From a virus: a stretch of DNA of 51,393 nucleotides. The stretch lies in IMG/VR virus record IMGVR_UViG_3300048925_000223, positions 1 to 51,393 of that record. One strand, written 5' to 3'. The notes under the pieces were generated by a model that saw only the letters and a program-made list of their open reading frames with translations, was not told the origin of the DNA and did not search any database. Of the stretch, positions 12,446 to 41,798 are shown in pieces. The position numbers were made by a program, and so were the translations under genes. The number at the start of each line of letters is the position of its first letter. The first letter of the stretch is position 1.

Positions 12446-15400
12446 TTATTTACGAGGTTGAAGCATGCCGCCCGGGCGAGTGCTCTGGTCTTTCATCTGA
12501 TAAAGCGCGACCTGCTTCATCATGCCTGCCATTTTATTCATGGTGGCGTCGTCAATGCCGTTTGTGGTCTGAATGTGGAAATGCACTTCCTGCTGAATAG
12601 TGCTGCCACTTCCTCCCGCACCGCCAATATCCCGGTTGCTGATTACCGATCCATTGTCGCCGGGGATCATGTACTGGCTGCCATTGCTGGCTTTGAAGAT
12701 TTCAGGCTTACCGCCTTCACCTACGCGGTACATGCTGCTCGCGCTGACGGGGCCGCCATGTTCGCGAGCACCGCCCATTGAGATGCTGCCAATACTTGTC
12801 AGGAGCGAGGCGCCAGCGCTGGCGATCGCAGCGTAGTTAGCGAATTTTTGCGCCGGTGTCAGTGCCGTGGGGTCTGCCATTGCCTGCGAGATAGCCAGTT
12901 GCAGGTTTAAAGCAGCCTGAGCCACTGCAAAACCTTTGCTTAACGCGAACATTGCTTGGTACGCGCCGCTGCTCTTTCCGGCGGCACCTGCCGCCAGGTT
13001 AGCGAGACCATCAAAGCCCTGAGATACCGACCCCACGATAGATGAAATGGCTTGTGACTGCATATTGGCTTCGTTCACTGCAATCTGCTGGCGTGCGTTA
13101 GCTGCTTGCTCCTGAATTGCAGTTTTAGCGTCTTCATAAAGCTGAGCATTTTGAAGATCGAGAGCCTGATATTTTGCCAACGCATCGAGCTTTTGCTGCT
13201 CACGTAAATCAATTTCTGCAGTTGGGTTTTGCACAGCACCGGTTTGGGCGTCAGGCATCACAGCTGCCGCTGCAATCTCCTGCGTAGCGAACTTTCTACC
13301 TTGCTCTGCCTGAGCCAAGTCACGCACGGCCTTGGCGCTATCAAAGGTTTTGGCGGCATACTCACCCGCCTGACGAATTTGCTCGTCGGTGGCACCTTTG
13401 CCTAGTGATTGCTGCGCACGAAGAATGGCCTGCTCTCTACTCATCTCAACTGTGGAGCTTGCTGCCAGCTCGGACTGCTCTTTGAGCTTCGCAAGTTTTT
13501 GCGCCACTGATTCAGATGATGCTGCCGAGCGTTTGTCCTGAGATTCGGCATCGGCAGCAGCTTTTTTCCGGTCATCTTCTTTTTTCTGTAAATCGTAATT
13601 CTCACCAGCGAGTCGCTTGGCTGCCTCAATCTGATTGGGATTGTTCGTTACTTTAGCTTGCTCCATGCCCGCTTTCGTAACGGCGCGTAGGCGCTCATCC
13701 TGAATTTTGAGCAGCTCGTTTCTCTGCTCAAGGTCGAGGATTGCGTCATCGCCTTTTTCTGTAGCGGGTGAAACCTGCATTGATTTAGGGTTGTAACCCT
13801 GACCGGCCTGATTGGCGCGATTGATCTCGTCCGCAGTAGTGCCAAAAGCCTTTGCAACAGCGCCCTGTACACGCTCCAGCGTCGTTCCACGCTCGATTAA
13901 TTTGTCATGAATACCCATGGCCGCCAGCATGTTGTTGCTTAACGTAACCTGAGCGTCATCACGCAACTTCATCGTGCTGGCGAGCTTACTTTCTGTAGAC
14001 TCGAGGTCGCGCTGTTTCTGATTTATCTGATCAGTTAGTTGCGCTGCACGCTGGAGAAGTCCATTCCCTTGCTCAATTGTGGTGCCGTACTTTCTGCCGC
14101 TGGCCTCAGCCTCGTCACGCTCTTTAGTAAGTGCTGATATTTCACTTTTAAGGTCTGCTACAACGTCCTGCTGGCCTCTCAATGCGGTATTGGCATCTGC
14201 GATCGTTCCGCGCAATGACGTGTTACTCATTGCTTTTAGCGAGTCAGTCAGTCGGTCTACGCCATCAGCGAATGAAACTGCTTCCTGTTTCGCTTGCTGG
14301 GCCTGCTGCCAGAAGTAGAAAATTGCAGCACCTGCAATCATAGCCACGCCAGCAGGACCGCCGACAAGACCCATTGCTCCACGAAGCAATCCGAGAGACG
14401 TTGATGCTGCCCGGGTTGCTATTACCGTAGCCTCTTGAGACGCTCGATATGCACCGTTGGCGGCTGTAGCTACTCCGGTCGCATCCGCTGTCGCTAAACG
14501 TGCTGCGCTTACCTGCGCTTCTGCCGCTGTGATTGCTGCTGCACGCGCCTGAGCTGTAGCTGCCTCCGCAGATGCTAGTCGTTGATTCAATGCCGCGGAT
14601 GCCTGTTGAAGCTGGGCCATTCGAGTAGCAGTGGCGATTCGGCCTTGCTCTGTGATTTGCGATCTCATTCGCTGTACTTCAAGTGCCTTTTCAGACTCTA
14701 TTTGCGCAATCGTAGTCCTTATTGACGAAGCCTCAGCTTCAGCCAGTCGCACTTCTGAAGCTACAGAGGCGTTTGTTGCTTTGAGCGTTGCAAGCCTTCC
14801 CTGTGCGAGCTGGAGGGTTTGAACAGTTGCAGCCTTCTCCACTTCAGCTAACCGCAGCTTGGCGCCAGCCTCTAATTCTGCATCTTTAGCAGCCACTGCT
14901 GATGCTTTAGCTGATGCAATAGTTGCGGCCGTGTCTTTTACTTTGGCAGCAGTAGCCATAGCCAGTGCGCCAGCAAAACGACTACCCATCACCGCTGTCA
15001 AAGCGACCAGAACTGTGCTGATGGTGTCCAGATTTTGCGAAAGAGAAATAATGCCTGTATTGAATGCTTTTATGCCGGTCGAAACAGTTGAGCTTTCACC
15101 GACAAACTTTACGATGTTGTTTGTCGCGATGGTCATCGCCTGACCCATGGTCATGGCGGTATTGGAGAATTCCTTCGCGATCTTATCGCTCTGCTGCAGC
15201 AACCCATTCACAACCACTTCAGTTGTCAGCTTTCCCTGTGCAGCCATCGCTCGGAGCTGACCAATTGTTACACCCAGAGAATCCGCAAGCGCCACAGCTA
15301 AGCGGCTTCCGTTTTCAGAGATAGAGTTGAACTCTTCGCCACGCAGAACGCCTGATGCAAGCGCCTGAGAAAGCTGCGTCATCGTTGAGCTTGCTTCTTC

Positions 15401-15889
15401 TGTGGTGGCGCCTGATACCGCTAGCCCCTTGTTGATGGTTTCAGTCAGGGTGATGAGATCTTGCGTGCTAGTGCCGGCGCTTCGAGTTGCACGCTCAAGA
15501 CGGCCATAGAGCGTTGCCGTCGCCGTAAGGCTGCTCATGGTGCCCTGAGAAATATCAAACACACGCTGAGTAACATCAGCAAGCTGTTCAGTCGAGCGAA
15601 CGGAGTTGGCTAATTTGTTATTGACCGTTACCCACTCATTGCCCCATTCAGCTACCTGATTGACTGACAGCGCCGCTAGTAAGCCTTTTGCTACACCAGT
15701 CAAACTTGATACAGCGCCTTCCATTGAAGAAATAGAGCGCTCGGTACGCGTAACGCTGGCTTCAAGGCGGTTCATATTTCCGCTTAGGCCATTTAATGCC
15801 GCATCAACCTCGCGCCGGGCTGCGATAAGCTTTGCTGTATCCATATCTACTTCATAAACAATGCTGCCAGCATTTACTGATCCAGCCAT
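12446..15889 (-). CDS. H: Tape measure protein (lambda H-like)
   Basis: 1147 residues. Early there is a tape-measure core (ERATRSAGTS and LRGEEFNSISENG near 130-190), then long Ala/Gln/Glu-rich helices with coiled-coil character (about 330-480 and 570-960), a hydrophobic GlyAla segment (about 500-530) that may be membrane-active during DNA entry, and a Gly-rich C-terminus. It sets tail length and would suggest a tail near lambda's size or longer. GGAG precedes the ATG. A terminator hairpin lies in the short leader, separating it from an upstream accessory gene pair. Confidence 0.92.
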   Translation of the reverse strand: MAGSVNAGSIVYEVDMDTAKLIAARREVDAALNGLSGNMNRLEASVTRTERSISSMEGAVSSLTGVAKGLLAALSVNQVAEWGNEWVTVNNKLANSVRSTEQLADVTQRVFDISQGTMSSLTATATLYGRLERATRSAGTSTQDLITLTETINKGLAVSGATTEEASSTMTQLSQALASGVLRGEEFNSISENGSRLAVALADSLGVTIGQLRAMAAQGKLTTEVVVNGLLQQSDKIAKEFSNTAMTMGQAMTIATNNIVKFVGESSTVSTGIKAFNTGIISLSQNLDTISTVLVALTAVMGSRFAGALAMATAAKVKDTAATIASAKASAVAAKDAELEAGAKLRLAEVEKAATVQTLQLAQGRLATLKATNASVASEVRLAEAEASSIRTTIAQIESEKALEVQRMRSQITEQGRIATATRMAQLQQASAALNQRLASAEAATAQARAAAITAAEAQVSAARLATADATGVATAANGAYRASQEATVIATRAASTSLGLLRGAMGLVGGPAGVAMIAGAAIFYFWQQAQQAKQEAVSFADGVDRLTDSLKAMSNTSLRGTIADANTALRGQQDVVADLKSEISALTKERDEAEASGRKYGTTIEQGNGLLQRAAQLTDQINQKQRDLESTESKLASTMKLRDDAQVTLSNNMLAAMGIHDKLIERGTTLERVQGAVAKAFGTTADEINRANQAGQGYNPKSMQVSPATEKGDDAILDLEQRNELLKIQDERLRAVTKAGMEQAKVTNNPNQIEAAKRLAGENYDLQKKEDDRKKAAADAESQDKRSAASSESVAQKLAKLKEQSELAASSTVEMSREQAILRAQQSLGKGATDEQIRQAGEYAAKTFDSAKAVRDLAQAEQGRKFATQEIAAAAVMPDAQTGAVQNPTAEIDLREQQKLDALAKYQALDLQNAQLYEDAKTAIQEQAANARQQIAVNEANMQSQAISSIVGSVSQGFDGLANLAAGAAGKSSGAYQAMFALSKGFAVAQAALNLQLAISQAMADPTALTPAQKFANYAAIASAGASLLTSIGSISMGGAREHGGPVSASSMYRVGEGGKPEIFKASNGSQYMIPGDNGSVISNRDIGGAGGSGSTIQQEVHFHIQTTNGIDDATMNKMAGMMKQVALYQMKDQSTRPGGMLQPRK

Positions 15890-15954: not shown

Positions 15955-16497
15955 TTACTGCCTCAGAGCTTCCTTAATTTCATCAGTGTCAAACATTAGA
16001 GAGGTGGTGCCATCACCCGATGAGACCATCGCGCTCACATCATTCTTTCTAAATACCGAGTATTTTTGTGTAGGGCATGAGCTCTGCTTAACGCATCCGT
16101 ACGGGATTTTATCAACCTCTGAAGGGTCAGAAACGCCCTCGTCGGTGGCGATAGGATCGCCAAGTTTGGTTTTGGCATACTCAACCGCCCCTTTATAAAA
16201 GGCCCCCTGAGAATCGACTACGCTTCCTCGAACTCCGATTACTTTACCGTTTACCGAGTTGACTGTGTAATCAGCTGCATCACCCAGCGCGGGATCTGGA
16301 GCTTTATCGAGCTGAATCTCAAGGAAGTGCTGCTTGGAAGGGATAAGGTTTTCTCGCTTAACTAAACCATCTTTTTTCAACTGCTCGGATTTACTATCAA
16401 GCTTGATGCCAAATGCATCTACGGCATAGTTACATCCAGCTAACATGGTAACAATCGCTAGCCCTATAATGATCTTCTTCAACTCTGTCACCCCCAT
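15955..16497 (-). CDS. Putative phage-encoded lipoprotein (moron)
   Basis: 180 residues with an N-terminal signal peptide and lipobox LAGC (Cys22). The mature part is polar with a Cys pair (YGCVKQSSC) about 30 residues before the end. It starts in an overlapping TAATG with the upstream gene's stop and is followed directly by a terminator, so the pair forms a self-contained accessory unit inside the tail operon. A surface or periplasmic role in the lysogen, such as receptor masking, is possible. I do not recognise the family. Confidence 0.7.
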   Translation of the reverse strand: MGVTELKKIIIGLAIVTMLAGCNYAVDAFGIKLDSKSEQLKKDGLVKRENLIPSKQHFLEIQLDKAPDPALGDAADYTVNSVNGKVIGVRGSVVDSQGAFYKGAVEYAKTKLGDPIATDEGVSDPSEVDKIPYGCVKQSSCPTQKYSVFRKNDVSAMVSSGDGTTSLMFDTDEIKEALRQ

Positions 16498-16838
16498 TAT
16501 TCAGCCCAACCTTCGGAACGTTTTTTCTTTTCAATTTTATCCAACTTACCAAAAGCTTTCTGCCGCTTAAGAATGATGGCGTATTGGCGATAACCGTGGT
16601 GTGCTGGCGCTATAAATTCGCCATTAGAATACATGTGAGGGTTTTGCTTCAGTGCCTGTATCGCAAGCGGCGCCAAAGCAATGTGCTGCTCGCAAAGGGC
16701 TATCGCTTTATTCAGATGCTTAGGGTCAGCGCGGAGTTTATAGTGTTTTTTTATCTGTTCTTGCAGGCTGAAGTGCGACTGTAGTATCTGATCGTGACTA
16801 AGGTGGCGCAGGCCATCTAGCCATTCCTCTTCGGTCAT
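16497..16838 (-). CDS. Hypothetical helical protein (moron, TPR-like)
   Basis: 113 residues from the ATG at 16838 (AGGG upstream); the frame extends to a TTG at 16892 but that start is weaker. The sequence is mainly helical, with an ALCEQHIALAP segment and a later APAHHGYRQYAIILKRQK segment that resemble tetratricopeptide-like repeats in small prophage proteins. The C-terminus is Lys-rich and ends GWAE. It is translationally coupled to the lipoprotein gene that follows. The role is unknown. Confidence 0.65.
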   Translation of the reverse strand: MTEEEWLDGLRHLSHDQILQSHFSLQEQIKKHYKLRADPKHLNKAIALCEQHIALAPLAIQALKQNPHMYSNGEFIAPAHHGYRQYAIILKRQKAFGKLDKIEKKKRSEGWAE

Positions 16839-17234
16839 ATCCCTATCCCAGTTGGTATCAGTGGGATAAATCCTAGCATGGAGTGGGCGCAAGATGGTGC
16901 AAAACCATAAGCACTGATCATCTATCAGGATGGCACTGCTACTTCATTACGCGTTAAGATTACTCTTATGCCAGTGAGCTTTTATCTGGTAATCCATCGT
17001 GATTCGTTTTCTGATGCTTCAAGAATTAAAGCCAGAATTAGACAAGAAGTAGCCTTCAATGCTTATGTTTTGGCATTTTTCTGATTTTTTGCTTCCCAAG
17101 CTAAAGGTTTTGACGCTTCTGCCGACTTGATCGTACATGCAGGTCGGCTTTAGTCGATCAATCAGATAAAACGATTAGTCATCGATTTTCAAGTAATGTA
17201 AAGTCGTCGAACTTTTTACAAGGAAACCTGTCGT
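16839..17234. other. Divergent intergenic region of the tail-operon accessory locus
   Basis: About 400 bp between the leftward moron pair and the rightward Ntn-hydrolase-like gene. It is AT-richer than the flanking genes. A GCCGAC...GTCGGC hairpin (17121-17148) followed by TTTA lies mid-way. An unsupported 38-codon + frame (16978-17094) is present and shows no clear family. Promoters for both directions are expected here, but I cannot fix them with confidence. Confidence 0.5.
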
Positions 17235-18032
17235 ATGACCACTACAGCATATGACGTAAAAAACAATTTAGTCGCCTGCGACACTCGTTGGTCTGCGGAT
17301 TTTAGTCTCATTGACGGTAACTACATTCTGTTGGTTGACGACACTGGATTCAATAAAATTGCTTATCGCCCAGGTGGTGCAATTTTTTGCGCAGGTGATG
17401 GCAAGACTATCGAGAAATTGAAAAAATGGTGGTTGGCCGAGCCGTTTGACCCTGAAGCGCTTCCAGACCTTGAGCATGAACATGAAAAAAAATTCAAGGT
17501 ATCTGTCATGGTTGTTTCTTCTGAGGGCGAGAAACTCTTTGATGCTGGCCCAAAGCAAGCCCTCGTTGACCCGGAAAAAGAAAATTTTATTCATGCAGTT
17601 TTCTCAGGGTCTGGTGGTGCTTTTGCCGGGCATACTTTCATGCAGTGCGGTTGCGTAAAAACATCTGTTACTGCAGCTGAAACGTTCGACCCTTACTCAG
17701 GCGGACAAGTTAAATTCTGTAACATTACATCAGGGGACAGTAACCTTGATGACGAAACGATGGACTACAATAGTATTATGACCGCAATGGATGAAAGGGG
17801 GATTCTGATGAAATACACAGGATTTTATGCAGCCAATGCAGAAAATGTGCAGACCATTCCGCTAAAAGAGCACCCACAATTCAAAGATGTATCTGCTCAA
17901 CTCCAAGCTGGCTCAGTAAGAGCTTACGCCCCGATGGGTGGTAACGAAGTTGAATGGAACGCCGAGAGAATCAATAAGCTTAAAGCTGCTGCCCGAAAGG
18001 TTGCAGATATTGAGCGTCGCTTAAAAGCATAA
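17235..18032 (+). CDS. Putative Ntn-hydrolase of the HslV/proteasome-beta type (moron)
   Basis: 265 residues. The start MTTTAYD followed by VACDTRW (Asp16) resembles the N-terminal catalytic strand pair of proteasome beta/HslV proteins, in which the Thr after the initiator Met is the nucleophile. A DDTGFNKIAYR segment supplies a Lys near the expected position (Lys41). AVFSGSGGAFAG (about 121-132) matches the GSGGxxA turn of HslV, and the following segment ends in KFCNIT, like the next strand. It stands alone on the + strand inside the leftward tail genes, with its own terminator. Target and activity are unknown; the C-terminal 90 residues have no counterpart in HslV. Confidence 0.6.
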   Translation: MTTTAYDVKNNLVACDTRWSADFSLIDGNYILLVDDTGFNKIAYRPGGAIFCAGDGKTIEKLKKWWLAEPFDPEALPDLEHEHEKKFKVSVMVVSSEGEKLFDAGPKQALVDPEKENFIHAVFSGSGGAFAGHTFMQCGCVKTSVTAAETFDPYSGGQVKFCNITSGDSNLDDETMDYNSIMTAMDERGILMKYTGFYAANAENVQTIPLKEHPQFKDVSAQLQAGSVRAYAPMGGNEVEWNAERINKLKAAARKVADIERRLKA

Positions 18033-18040
18033 TTCTCCAA

Positions 18041-18060
18041 CCCGGCTCCGGCCGGGTTTT
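18041..18060 (+). terminator. Terminator of the Ntn-hydrolase-like gene
   Basis: CCCGGC-TCCG-GCCGGG stem-loop (18041-18056) then TTTT CTTT. It separates the + strand moron from the convergent tail chaperone gene ending at 18063. Confidence 0.85.
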
Positions 18061-18062
18061 CT

Positions 18063-18734
18063 TTACCCCTTTTCCAACCGCCTCGCCTTCCTCGCCAGAT
18101 AGTCATCAGCAACCGAATCATATTCTTCCTTCGTGAAGCCCTTCTGCTCCGGAAATTTGGCAGTCAGCAGCAACTGAAAATCAGTCATCGTAAGCTGCTC
18201 CGCCTCTTCTCGGCTCATGCCAAGATGCGTTCTAGCTGCGCTGATGTATTCGAATGCGTTGAACTCACTGGATGCCTGCGCACCTTCGTGGCGCTGTAGT
18301 TTGCGCACTTTGGCCTTGCCGATGACACCATGCGCCATAAGCGATCGGGCAATGATGACCATCTCCTCCGGCGCCATCCGGCCTTTGCGATAAACGAAAG
18401 TCCACTTGCCAGACCTGCCCGGCACAATCTCCCCGGTCAGCGCCGATACATCTTGCGGTGAGCAAGCCTGAAGCACCGACATCGCAGTGACGATCGCTTT
18501 CTTACTGTATTGGGGCGAAGCGAGGTGTGATGTAAGCCAGGCGGGGATGGTGCCGAACGCTTTGAGCGCCTTACGCATCAATTCGCCTACTTCATCGTTA
18601 TACAGGTCATACAACGCCTGCACGATTTCATCTGGCTCACCGATTCGCGTCATGTTGATGAACGACGGACGGAAGAAGTATTCATTCTCGCCGTCGCTAA
18701 TCACGCACTCGCCAATTTCCTTCAGTGGCGTCAT
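18063..18734 (-). CDS. DUF6246-family tail assembly chaperone (lambda G-like position)
   Basis: 223 residues from the ATG at 18734, which has GGAGGAAAC upstream. The frame is open further back, but that part overlaps the tail-tube gene. It begins MTPLKEIGECVI and contains FFRPSFINMTRIG and a C-terminal SREEAEQLTMTDFQLLL, which I recognise as the DUF6246 family of siphovirus tail proteins. Between tail tube and tape measure this is where lambda has G/GT, so a chaperone coating the tape measure is likely. No second frameshifted product is obvious. Confidence 0.75.
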   Translation of the reverse strand: MTPLKEIGECVISDGENEYFFRPSFINMTRIGEPDEIVQALYDLYNDEVGELMRKALKAFGTIPAWLTSHLASPQYSKKAIVTAMSVLQACSPQDVSALTGEIVPGRSGKWTFVYRKGRMAPEEMVIIARSLMAHGVIGKAKVRKLQRHEGAQASSEFNAFEYISAARTHLGMSREEAEQLTMTDFQLLLTAKFPEQKGFTKEEYDSVADDYLARKARRLEKG

Positions 18735-18783
18735 GTTTCCTCCATAAGCATTATCAAGGGCTGAATCCAGCCCTTTGGAATGG

Positions 18784-19527
18784 TTACGAAGAAGTGACTG
18801 TAACCACTGTGGTGCCGGTGAAATTTCCATCGGTCGAGGTGAACGTGATAGTCGCAGAACCCGCAGCCACCGCAGTGACCAGGCCGGTATTGCTAACTGT
18901 CGCTTTGGTTGCGTCCGAGGTCGTCCAGGTGCCGGTGCGTTCGGTTGCATCGGCAGGCTGAACTGAGCCGGTCAACTGGCGGGTCGCGCCAACAGCGAGG
19001 GAAGCTGTAGCCGGTGTCACGGTCACGCCGGTCGCTGGCACGGTTTCATCAGTGTCGAGAATATCAATAGTCGTGGCATCGCCAACCTTGAACTCGGTGG
19101 TAAAGGTAACAATGTCGTTCGTGCCACCGTCTGAGCTCAGCGCTGTAATGACCATGTAACCAACAAAGGTCACCGCACCAAACTCCATGCGCACCCAAAT
19201 GCCGGGCTGGCGGCGAGCTTTAAGTTCAGCAGTAAAGTATTTAATAAAGCGATAAATACCGTACTGATCCAGCTTGTCGTTTTTACGCACCTCACCCTCA
19301 AAGCTGATGGTGAAATCTGAGTTGGTGATGATGCTCTCAACAAAGCCGCCACCGTCATCCGCATCGGAAGTTACTGTGTTAGGTGAGAAGTCCCACCCTT
19401 TGCTCGTTCCGGCAGCCAGCGCTTTCCATTCCGATTCCTGCGGCAGCGCATCGCTGCAGCCATCGGCAACTTCAAGCACAACGGCGCCACCGAACAAACG
19501 TTCGTTGCTGTTCTGGCAATCAGCCAT
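18784..19527 (-). CDS. Major tail tube protein with C-terminal Ig-like (Big_2) domain
   Basis: 247 residues. The N-terminal about 155 form a tail-tube fold of the lambda V type (FEGEVRKNDKLDQYG; VTFTTEFKVGD). The C-terminal about 85 (from VTVTPATASLAVG to the end) are a bacterial Ig-like group 2 domain, with TWTTSDATKATV and GLVTAVAAGSATIT as signatures. Such domains decorate the outside of siphovirus tails, as in lambda gpV, and probably give weak adhesion to surfaces. It lies between the tail terminator and the tail chaperone. Confidence 0.9.
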   Translation of the reverse strand: MADCQNSNERLFGGAVVLEVADGCSDALPQESEWKALAAGTSKGWDFSPNTVTSDADDGGGFVESIITNSDFTISFEGEVRKNDKLDQYGIYRFIKYFTAELKARRQPGIWVRMEFGAVTFVGYMVITALSSDGGTNDIVTFTTEFKVGDATTIDILDTDETVPATGVTVTPATASLAVGATRQLTGSVQPADATERTGTWTTSDATKATVSNTGLVTAVAAGSATITFTSTDGNFTGTTVVTVTSS

Positions 19528-40475: not shown

Positions 40476-41189
40476 ATGAAAAACACAAAGACGTTGACGC
40501 CGGAACAGCTGGAAGACGCTAAGCGCCTCAAGGCTCTGTACGAGTCGAAGAAGAAAAGCCTGGGCATTACCCAGCAACATATCGCGGACGCTCTGGACAT
40601 TACACAGGGTGCCGTAGGTCATTACCTGAATGGCCGCAACGCGCTTAACTTAAGCGCAGCTTTAACTTTTTCTCGCTTACTCCAGGTTCCTGTTTCTGAT
40701 TTCAGTCCATCGTTGGCAAAAGAAGTGGATGGAGCCTCTGCGCCCGCGCTCGATAAAAACGTGACCTACGCTGGACCATACGAACCAAAAGGAAGGTATC
40801 CTATGCTCAGTTGGGTCAGCGCAGGACAATGGGAAGAAGCAATGGAGCCCTATTCGATCAGCGAGATAAACGAATGGTATGAATCTGATGTGCCGATTCA
40901 GGGCACAGGATTCTGGCTGAAAGTCGAGGGCGATTCGATGACGGCACCGATCGGGCAAAGCATTCCCGAAGGCCACAGTGTGCTGGTTGATACCGGTAGA
41001 GAAGCAAAAAATGGATCGCTTGTAGTCGCTAAACTAATTGATGCTAATGAAGCGACATTTAAGAAGCTCGTCATCGACGGCGGGCAGCGCTACCTAAAAG
41101 GCCTTAATCCTGCATGGCCGATGACACCCATCAACGGTAACTGCCGCATCATTGGTGTTGTTGTTGAATCCAAAGTTAGATACGTGTAG
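40476..41189 (+). CDS. cI: CI-like prophage repressor (HTH plus S24 domain)
   Basis: 237 residues. The N-terminal HTH (LGITQQHIADALDITQGAVGHYLNGRN) is lambda CI-like. The C-terminal S24 domain has cleavage site Ala116-Gly117 (SWVSAGQW), nucleophile Ser154 (EGDSM) and a Lys in TFKKLV (about 196-197). RecA should therefore induce the prophage. It is divergent from cro and followed by a terminator; both flanks carry its operators. Confidence 0.95.
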   Translation: MKNTKTLTPEQLEDAKRLKALYESKKKSLGITQQHIADALDITQGAVGHYLNGRNALNLSAALTFSRLLQVPVSDFSPSLAKEVDGASAPALDKNVTYAGPYEPKGRYPMLSWVSAGQWEEAMEPYSISEINEWYESDVPIQGTGFWLKVEGDSMTAPIGQSIPEGHSVLVDTGREAKNGSLVVAKLIDANEATFKKLVIDGGQRYLKGLNPAWPMTPINGNCRIIGVVVESKVRYV

Positions 41190-41207
41190 CTACACCCCAC
41201 TTAATCG

Positions 41208-41229
41208 AGCCGCCTAGAGCGGCTTTTTT
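41208..41229 (+). terminator. Terminator of cI
   Basis: AGCCGC-CTAGA-GCGGCT followed by five T, 19 bp after the cI stop codon. It separates the cI message from OL/pL. Confidence 0.88.
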
Positions 41230-41269
41230 ATTACCTGCAAAAAATAAATTCCTTTCACAATCATAATTT

Positions 41270-41333
41270 TAATACTTCCCATATTATTTTTAATACTCTG
41301 GGTATTGCCATAAAATAATACCTAGAGTATTGT
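41270..41333 (+). promoter_or_regulatory. OL operators and promoter pL
   Basis: Three operators of the same type as OR: TAATACTTCCCATATTA (41270-41286), TAATACTCTGGGTATTG (41291-41307) and TAATACCTAGAGTATTG (41316-41332). pL has TTGCCA (41305-41310), 17 bp and TATTGT (41328-41333), with two operators overlapping it. Confidence 0.88.
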
Positions 41334-41377
41334 TTACCCCATCAGCAGGACGCTGACGAACAACGAAACGGATTTCA

Positions 41378-41411
41378 GCTCTTTAAAAATTTAGCCCTGT
41401 GAATACACAGG
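41378..41411 (+). promoter_or_regulatory. nutL: nutL-like site
   Basis: boxA-like GCTCTTTA (41378-41385) is followed by a perfect 6-bp hairpin CCTGTG-AATA-CACAGG (41396-41411) as boxB. It lies about 40 bp past the expected pL start. The rest of the leader to 41543 holds other GC-rich stems and no gene. Confidence 0.75.
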
Positions 41412-41543
41412 CCGAGGCGAGTGCTTCGGGCAAGAGATAGGTGGAGCTTACGCCAGTCAGGATGGTGGACCTGAGAAGCCTATGAAGTTCGGAAACGTCA
41501 CGGGTTCCGGCTCTTGCACCCAAGCACTCATTGAGGAATACCC

Positions 41544-41798
41544 ATGAACAGAAATCAACGTCGTATGGCTGCGTACAACGCACGTAAAGCCACTGAACAG
41601 ATTGAGCGTGACGGTTACACCAAAAGAATCGATCGGGCCTTTACGAAGCTCTCATTGGGCTGCACGGCGAAGGTTGCCCGCGCCACCTCCTCCCCTAGTC
41701 TGCGTGATAAGCAGGAAGGTGGAGGGGTATGTTTACCGGATGTTGCTCAGTTCGCAGCTGGCTATCGGAAATCTAAAGACAACGTGACGGCGAGGTGA
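41544..41798 (+). CDS. N: N-like early antitermination protein
   Basis: 84 residues, first gene of the pL operon after nutL. The N-terminal MNRNQRRMAAYNARK is an arginine-rich RNA-binding motif as in N proteins, which bind boxB. The C-terminal VCLPDVAQFAAGYRKSK is shared with N homologues of lambdoid phages as far as I recall. GAGGAA lies upstream of the ATG. Length (lambda N 107) and position support the call. Confidence 0.8.
   Translation: MNRNQRRMAAYNARKATEQIERDGYTKRIDRAFTKLSLGCTAKVARATSSPSLRDKQEGGGVCLPDVAQFAAGYRKSKDNVTAR

Follow-up and report, generated by a model that had tools for sequence, protein, structure and literature searches.

The gene at 17235-18032 on the plus strand of a viral DNA stretch of 51,393 nucleotides (the whole of which we call the window) encodes a proteasome-like Ntn-hydrolase of 265 residues, an assignment well supported by both fold and active site. 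Relatives of this gene on viral contigs recur directly behind the cI repressor gene, so that one subfamily of phage proteasome homologues has a repeated and informative context, a slot of exclusion or repressor-protecting genes, and this makes the question of function approachable by simple lysogen tests. As far as open-licence papers show, the context appears unreported. It favours a role in defence or immunity, and we consider it about evenly balanced whether the protein acts as a lysogen-expressed, propeptide-free threonine protease, whose purpose, because of the position of the gene, would most likely be superinfection exclusion or abortive infection. The analysis was entirely computational.

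The gene, its product and the proteasome fold

The reading frame starts with ATG and runs opposite to the tail genes, as a preliminary description made from the letters of the window had stated, and the features named there (the MTTTAYD start, VACDTRW, Lys41 and AVFSGSGGAFAG) are all found in the 265-residue product. Purifying selection on the frame is strong in all seven of the pairs compared, with pN between 0.16 and 0.23 against pS between 0.71 and 0.81, and because synonymous sites are near saturation while pN is low throughout, we regard it as a real gene. Its GC content of 0.45 is lower than that of the record (0.51), a difference common in late-acquired cargo, which this gene may be. 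Downstream, a terminator-like hairpin with a T-rich tail (18039-18058, plus strand) agrees with the terminator of its own that had been described for the gene. Some copies of the protease gene have a conserved leader of their own, and the one before the start in the window (17197-17232, plus strand) shows 83% identity over 36 bp to the leader of an E. coli island copy. A consensus scan found no sigma-70 promoter upstream of the window copy; such scans mostly did no better than shuffled sequences and are not counted as promoter evidence, and promoter and terminator calls alike are consensus matches.

Residues 1-188 match the PHROGs family phrog_1040, 'peptidase HslV family', with an E value of 1e-14, a profile that also matches E. 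coli and 8 other control genomes. The protein has no match in Pfam, in NCBIfam or in a single-sequence search of the PDB, and because the PF00227 search of its own record was also empty, the family appears too divergent for the standard proteasome model. When the family was aligned by hhalign with 11 phage HslV-like proteins, the two were in register over residues 1-185 (98% probability, E 3e-13), against at most 0.5% for 20 column-shuffled versions. A PDB search with a profile of 23 sequences comprising the family and phage homologues (A5) gave proteasome beta-8 and beta-5 as the best matches (E 1.4e-9 for beta-8), and all 60 of the chains listed are proteasome beta subunits. In the alignment with beta-5 and beta-8, the elements TT, D.R, K, G, GSG and D..SGG follow one another in that order. 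The proteasome class proposed in the preliminary description is thus borne out by phrog_1040, by hhalign with its shuffled controls and by the A5 profile.

The catalytic positions, all encoded on the plus strand, are invariant among the 10 family members aligned. Thr2 (17238-17240), the presumed N-terminal nucleophile after removal of the methionine, corresponds to proteasome Thr1 and is also invariant in the aligned phage homologues. Asp16 (17280-17282; proteasome Asp17) is followed by Thr-Arg, Lys41 (17355-17357; proteasome Lys33) is kept in an 18-sequence alignment as well, and Gly54 (17394-17396) is the oxyanion-hole glycine, Gly47 in the proteasome. Gly125-Ser126-Gly127 (17607-17615) falls in the region of proteasome Ser129 and aligns with the GSG of beta-5 and beta-8, and the segment Asp152-Pro-Tyr-Ser155-Gly-Gly157 (17688-17705; Asp166..Ser169-Gly-Gly in the proteasome), of which Asp152 and Gly156-Gly157 are invariant, is in register with their D..SGG. 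Homologues without Thr2, Asp16 and Lys41 had been named in advance as evidence against the assignment, and all three residues are kept. From a conserved active site of this kind, catalysis by the protein is likely.

The AlphaFold model built on the A5 alignment (pLDDT 87.8, pTM 0.86) has the strand-helix order of an Ntn hydrolase and lacks helix H2, which would follow the first helix and precede the next strand. Foldseek returned 37 matches below 1e-3 for this model, and 50 of the 50 matches listed are proteasome chains, with modest TM-scores of 0.36-0.53 by target length; the Ntn sandwich, whose absence had been named as the other argument against the class, is therefore not refuted by the predicted fold. 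An initial model from close relatives only (A1) was poor (pLDDT 57.5), and the five best PDB matches of this low-confidence model were all HslV. Because HslV already came out on top there, the fold result does not depend on the homologues added later. The C-terminal extension, residues ~165-265 (17727-18029, plus strand), is absent from most phage HslV-like proteins and contains helices at 178-188, 216-225 and 243-264 in the A5 model. A weak match of the C-terminal part to an LSm protein (E 1) was discarded.

With regard to its place among proteasome homologues, the preliminary description was right about the proteasome class; profiles and fold put the protein not with HslV proper but in the phage HslV-like branch (PPH/RPC). 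HslV (ClpQ, the HslVU peptidase) has in common with it the Ntn fold, an active site of the Thr1/Asp17/Lys33 type and the top matches of the A1 model, whereas the window protein has a proteasome-beta-like D..SGG ending and an extra C-terminal extension, lacks a Pfam or NCBIfam match to HslV and has no HslU partner in the record. The hhalign comparison with E. coli HslV alone gave 1.8% and no meaningful alignment, as expected for so shallow a family. The earlier remark that there is no ATPase partner nearby agrees with our family searches of the 51-kb record, which found no AAA or AAA_2 ATPase match while all 14 control genomes were positive; a host unfoldase, host HslU among them, may serve instead, or the protein may act without one.

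The nearest solved chains by profile and fold are those of 20S proteasome beta-5 and beta-8, which contain the same GSG and D..SGG; the window protein differs from them in having no propeptide and no H2 and in being the product of a single phage gene. PPH is a proteasome homologue of phages and hosts, of ~140 residues and without H2 (Fuchs, Alva and Lupas 2021, PMC8665760). Members of phrog_1040 such as VpV262 ORF47 and Shewanella phage 3/49 gp63 are of this type, and they share with the window protein the MTT start, the lack of a propeptide and of H2, the Asp/Lys/Gly catalytic set, GSG and the A..D..SGG ending. This core signature and the lack of H2 are seen in hhalign, in the alignment and in the model. 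The window protein is longer (265 residues), with its unique C-terminal extension and a ~10-residue insertion around 22-34, and many of the PPH-type proteins compared come from other phage groups, whereas its own family belongs to temperate phages and islands. RPC is a relative of PPH that has a C-terminal extension and also lacks H2, and for which the published table marks no phage occurrence (PMC8665760). Compared by published description only, the window protein fits RPC, with a PPH-like core, no H2, a C-terminal extra domain of unknown fold and a proteobacterial setting. HslV-like relatives of VpV262 ORF47 are common among phages, with matches in 532 phage records; most are annotated as hypothetical, and many of the weaker matches are partial. 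Aeromonas phage vB_AceP_PAc encodes a 276-residue HslV-like protein (L028:601-1431) with a C-terminal extension of its own that is not obviously homologous to that of the window protein.

Genomic positions of the protease gene

We found 8 relatives on viral contigs and 9 in E. coli, the latter in 9 of 5426 genomes. Members of the family are rare within the collections searched, and pattern-based genome scans can miss some of them; tblastn against named phages and plasmids found no relative, and neither did two pattern-based contig scans, which are weak negatives. In six of the eight viral-contig relatives (L001, L002, L003, L004, L005 and L007), the protease gene lies directly behind cI on the same strand, and in each of these cI encodes a repressor with a peptidase S24 domain. 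The order in L005 is cII-like, cI, protease and N-like. Between cI and the protease gene there is no convincing terminator in L001, L002, L003, L004 and L007, and L005 has a terminator-like hairpin that overlaps with the stop of cI. In L008 and L009, the protease gene is found beyond the tail-fibre genes on the opposite strand.

The place behind cI is where the rexAB genes of phage lambda lie. Genes of lambdoid phages that are cotranscribed from PRM and expressed in the lysogen include RexAB, the 933W kinase and 434 Hex, with phage-exclusion effects (PMC3564112). Like lambda rexA/rexB, 434 hex and 933W stk, the protease gene follows cI and shares its strand in most relatives; the proteins themselves are unrelated to the protease. 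In the window, cI (40476-41189, plus strand; HTH and peptidase S24, HK620 type) and the N-like antiterminator gene (41544-41798, plus strand) border the rex position (41190-41543, plus strand), to which no open reading frame of at least 80 residues is confined; the window copy of the protease gene is itself not behind cI. HK620 and HK630, with the same cI type, carry hkaS in that place, and the HK620 record marks tIMM, 'termination of cI transcript', downstream of hkaS. Erwinia phage vB_EhrS_49, whose cI is also of this type, carries a gene for a TPR protein directly behind cI, and Serratia phage OS31 has no annotated gene there.

The window copy lies between the DUF6246/phrog_791 tail-region gene (18063-18950, minus strand; 65% to Midgardsormr38 gp15) and the gene for the tape measure protein (12446-15889, minus strand; 71% to Midgardsormr38 gp22 in the best segment). 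The same interval contains three genes annotated 'possible moron' in ES18, antirepressor and Arc genes in Midgardsormr38 and, in Salmonella phage S107, a dozen small genes, two Rha among them; in CobraSix it is empty. Because its contents vary in this way and can be missing altogether, the interval is a moron slot, and the earlier view of the protease gene, which sits reversed within it, as a moron is supported. The tie to the tail operon drawn at the same time did not hold, since in relatives the gene follows cI, lies past the tail-fibre genes or belongs to an E. coli island.

For the E. coli copies, all three of the genomes inspected carry the protease gene in integrase-bearing islands that adjoin the dsd genes, outside any full prophage, and the far end, where read, is a tRNA-Arg. 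These islands contain a tyrosine integrase, a rolling-circle replication-associated protein, resolvases and strain-variable cargo, and may be satellites. In the tree, copies from the rex position, the tail slot and the islands are intermingled, with few branches strongly supported.

Proposed function and alternatives

A Met-Thr start is a good substrate for methionine aminopeptidase. The host enzyme would remove Met1 and expose Thr2, with no need for a propeptide, and Thr2 would then serve as the N-terminal nucleophile together with Asp16, Lys41 and the Gly54 oxyanion hole. Instead of a dedicated AAA+ unfoldase, residues 165-265 probably determine how the protein assembles or which substrates it takes. 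The gene would travel as a mobile cargo unit, and since it is usually behind cI, the lysogen presumably expresses it, either on the repressor transcript or from a promoter of its own. When another phage infects, the protease would most likely attack a specific host or phage protein. More tentatively, and as a possibility that we would not yet back, threonine proteases at the rex position and at moron sites may form a lysogen-expressed anti-phage system of temperate phages and phage-like islands, in which the extension senses infection or picks the target; if true, no proteasome homologue before it would have had a part in conflict between phages.

The same position behind cI in six relatives could also point to the control of lysogeny, with the protease acting on the prophage's own cI, CII, antirepressor or N, or on the RecA-dependent cleavage of cI, and so setting the stability of the lysogen. 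In 434, Hex at this position slows RecA-driven repressor cleavage, so that a gene in the rex slot can protect the repressor (PMC3564112), and the slot used in the window is the one that holds the antirepressor and Arc genes in the related phage Midgardsormr38. However, the copies in the window, in L008 and L009 and in the E. coli islands are not beside cI, and the repressors that do adjoin the protease gene are diverse; we consider this reading unlikely, if still worth weighing. Slightly less probable in our judgement is lysogenic conversion, in which a protein-quality or stress-response protease would aid the host rather than exclude phages. The presence of the gene in 9 of 5426 E. coli genomes, with the inspected copies in small integrated islands outside full prophages, is consistent with it, as is the ATP-independent action proposed for such proteasome homologues (PMC8665760), but the gene is rare and sits at phage immunity and moron sites, and its island neighbours are themselves cargo of unknown function.

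With respect to chemistry, the protein could have the proteasome fold and yet be a non-proteolytic enzyme of the Ntn class, perhaps a specific ligase or amidase, similar to connectase, a monomeric proteasome homologue that acts as a ligase (PMC8665760). The extension and the insertion around 22-34 have been added to a PPH core, yet the core catalytic positions of the proteasome, D..SGG among them, all match those of the protease beta-5, and we regard this as improbable. A lytic or virion role, in which the protease would be produced along with the tail operon and serve in tail or head maturation, would suit the location of the window copy inside the tail gene cluster. The gene runs opposite to the tail genes and has a terminator-like site of its own, every other relative has it in another position, and related phages have no copy at this site, so that such a role is very improbable; a reading as a tail protein was rejected on position and strand. 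The preferred reading, exclusion or abortive infection by a lysogen-expressed threonine protease, is suggested by genomic context. Against it, PADLOC has no model that matches the protease, and the cargo genes around it include no proven defence gene. For phage proteasome homologues in general, the 2021 paper gave no function and found no suggestive genomic context (PMC8665760).

Cargo beside the protease gene

On the tape-measure side of the protease gene, the window slot holds two smaller genes. One of these (16497-16892, minus strand) encodes a 131-residue TPR-like protein of phrog_22434, with 47% identity to L002:10865-11239, which adjoins the protease gene in the L002 immunity region, and 38% identity to the vB_EhrS_49 TPR protein behind cI. 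Because of these two matches, both the protease and its neighbour have relatives in immunity regions, which makes 16497-16892 a candidate for a second immunity-region cargo gene. A relative was not found at the other protease loci, and the partner is thus not obligate. Next to the tape measure gene lies that of a probable lipoprotein (15955-16497, minus strand), with a weak LPAM match below the Pfam cut-off; the corresponding place in Midgardsormr38 is taken by gp21, a lipoprotein-like gene of weak similarity.

Island cargo differs between strains. L010 carries a gene pair of 821 and 330 residues beside the protease (L010:10227-13681) with no Pfam or PADLOC match, and other strains, L012 among them, carry a HEPN-like protein of 313 residues, a match below the cut-off, together with one of 227 residues (L012:10305-12061). 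This swapped cargo may possibly include new defence genes. Near the start of the window, a tRNA-Arg (CCT) at 528-602 adjoins a tyrosine integrase gene at 765-1922, and the protease-bearing E. coli island L051 also ends at a tRNA-Arg.
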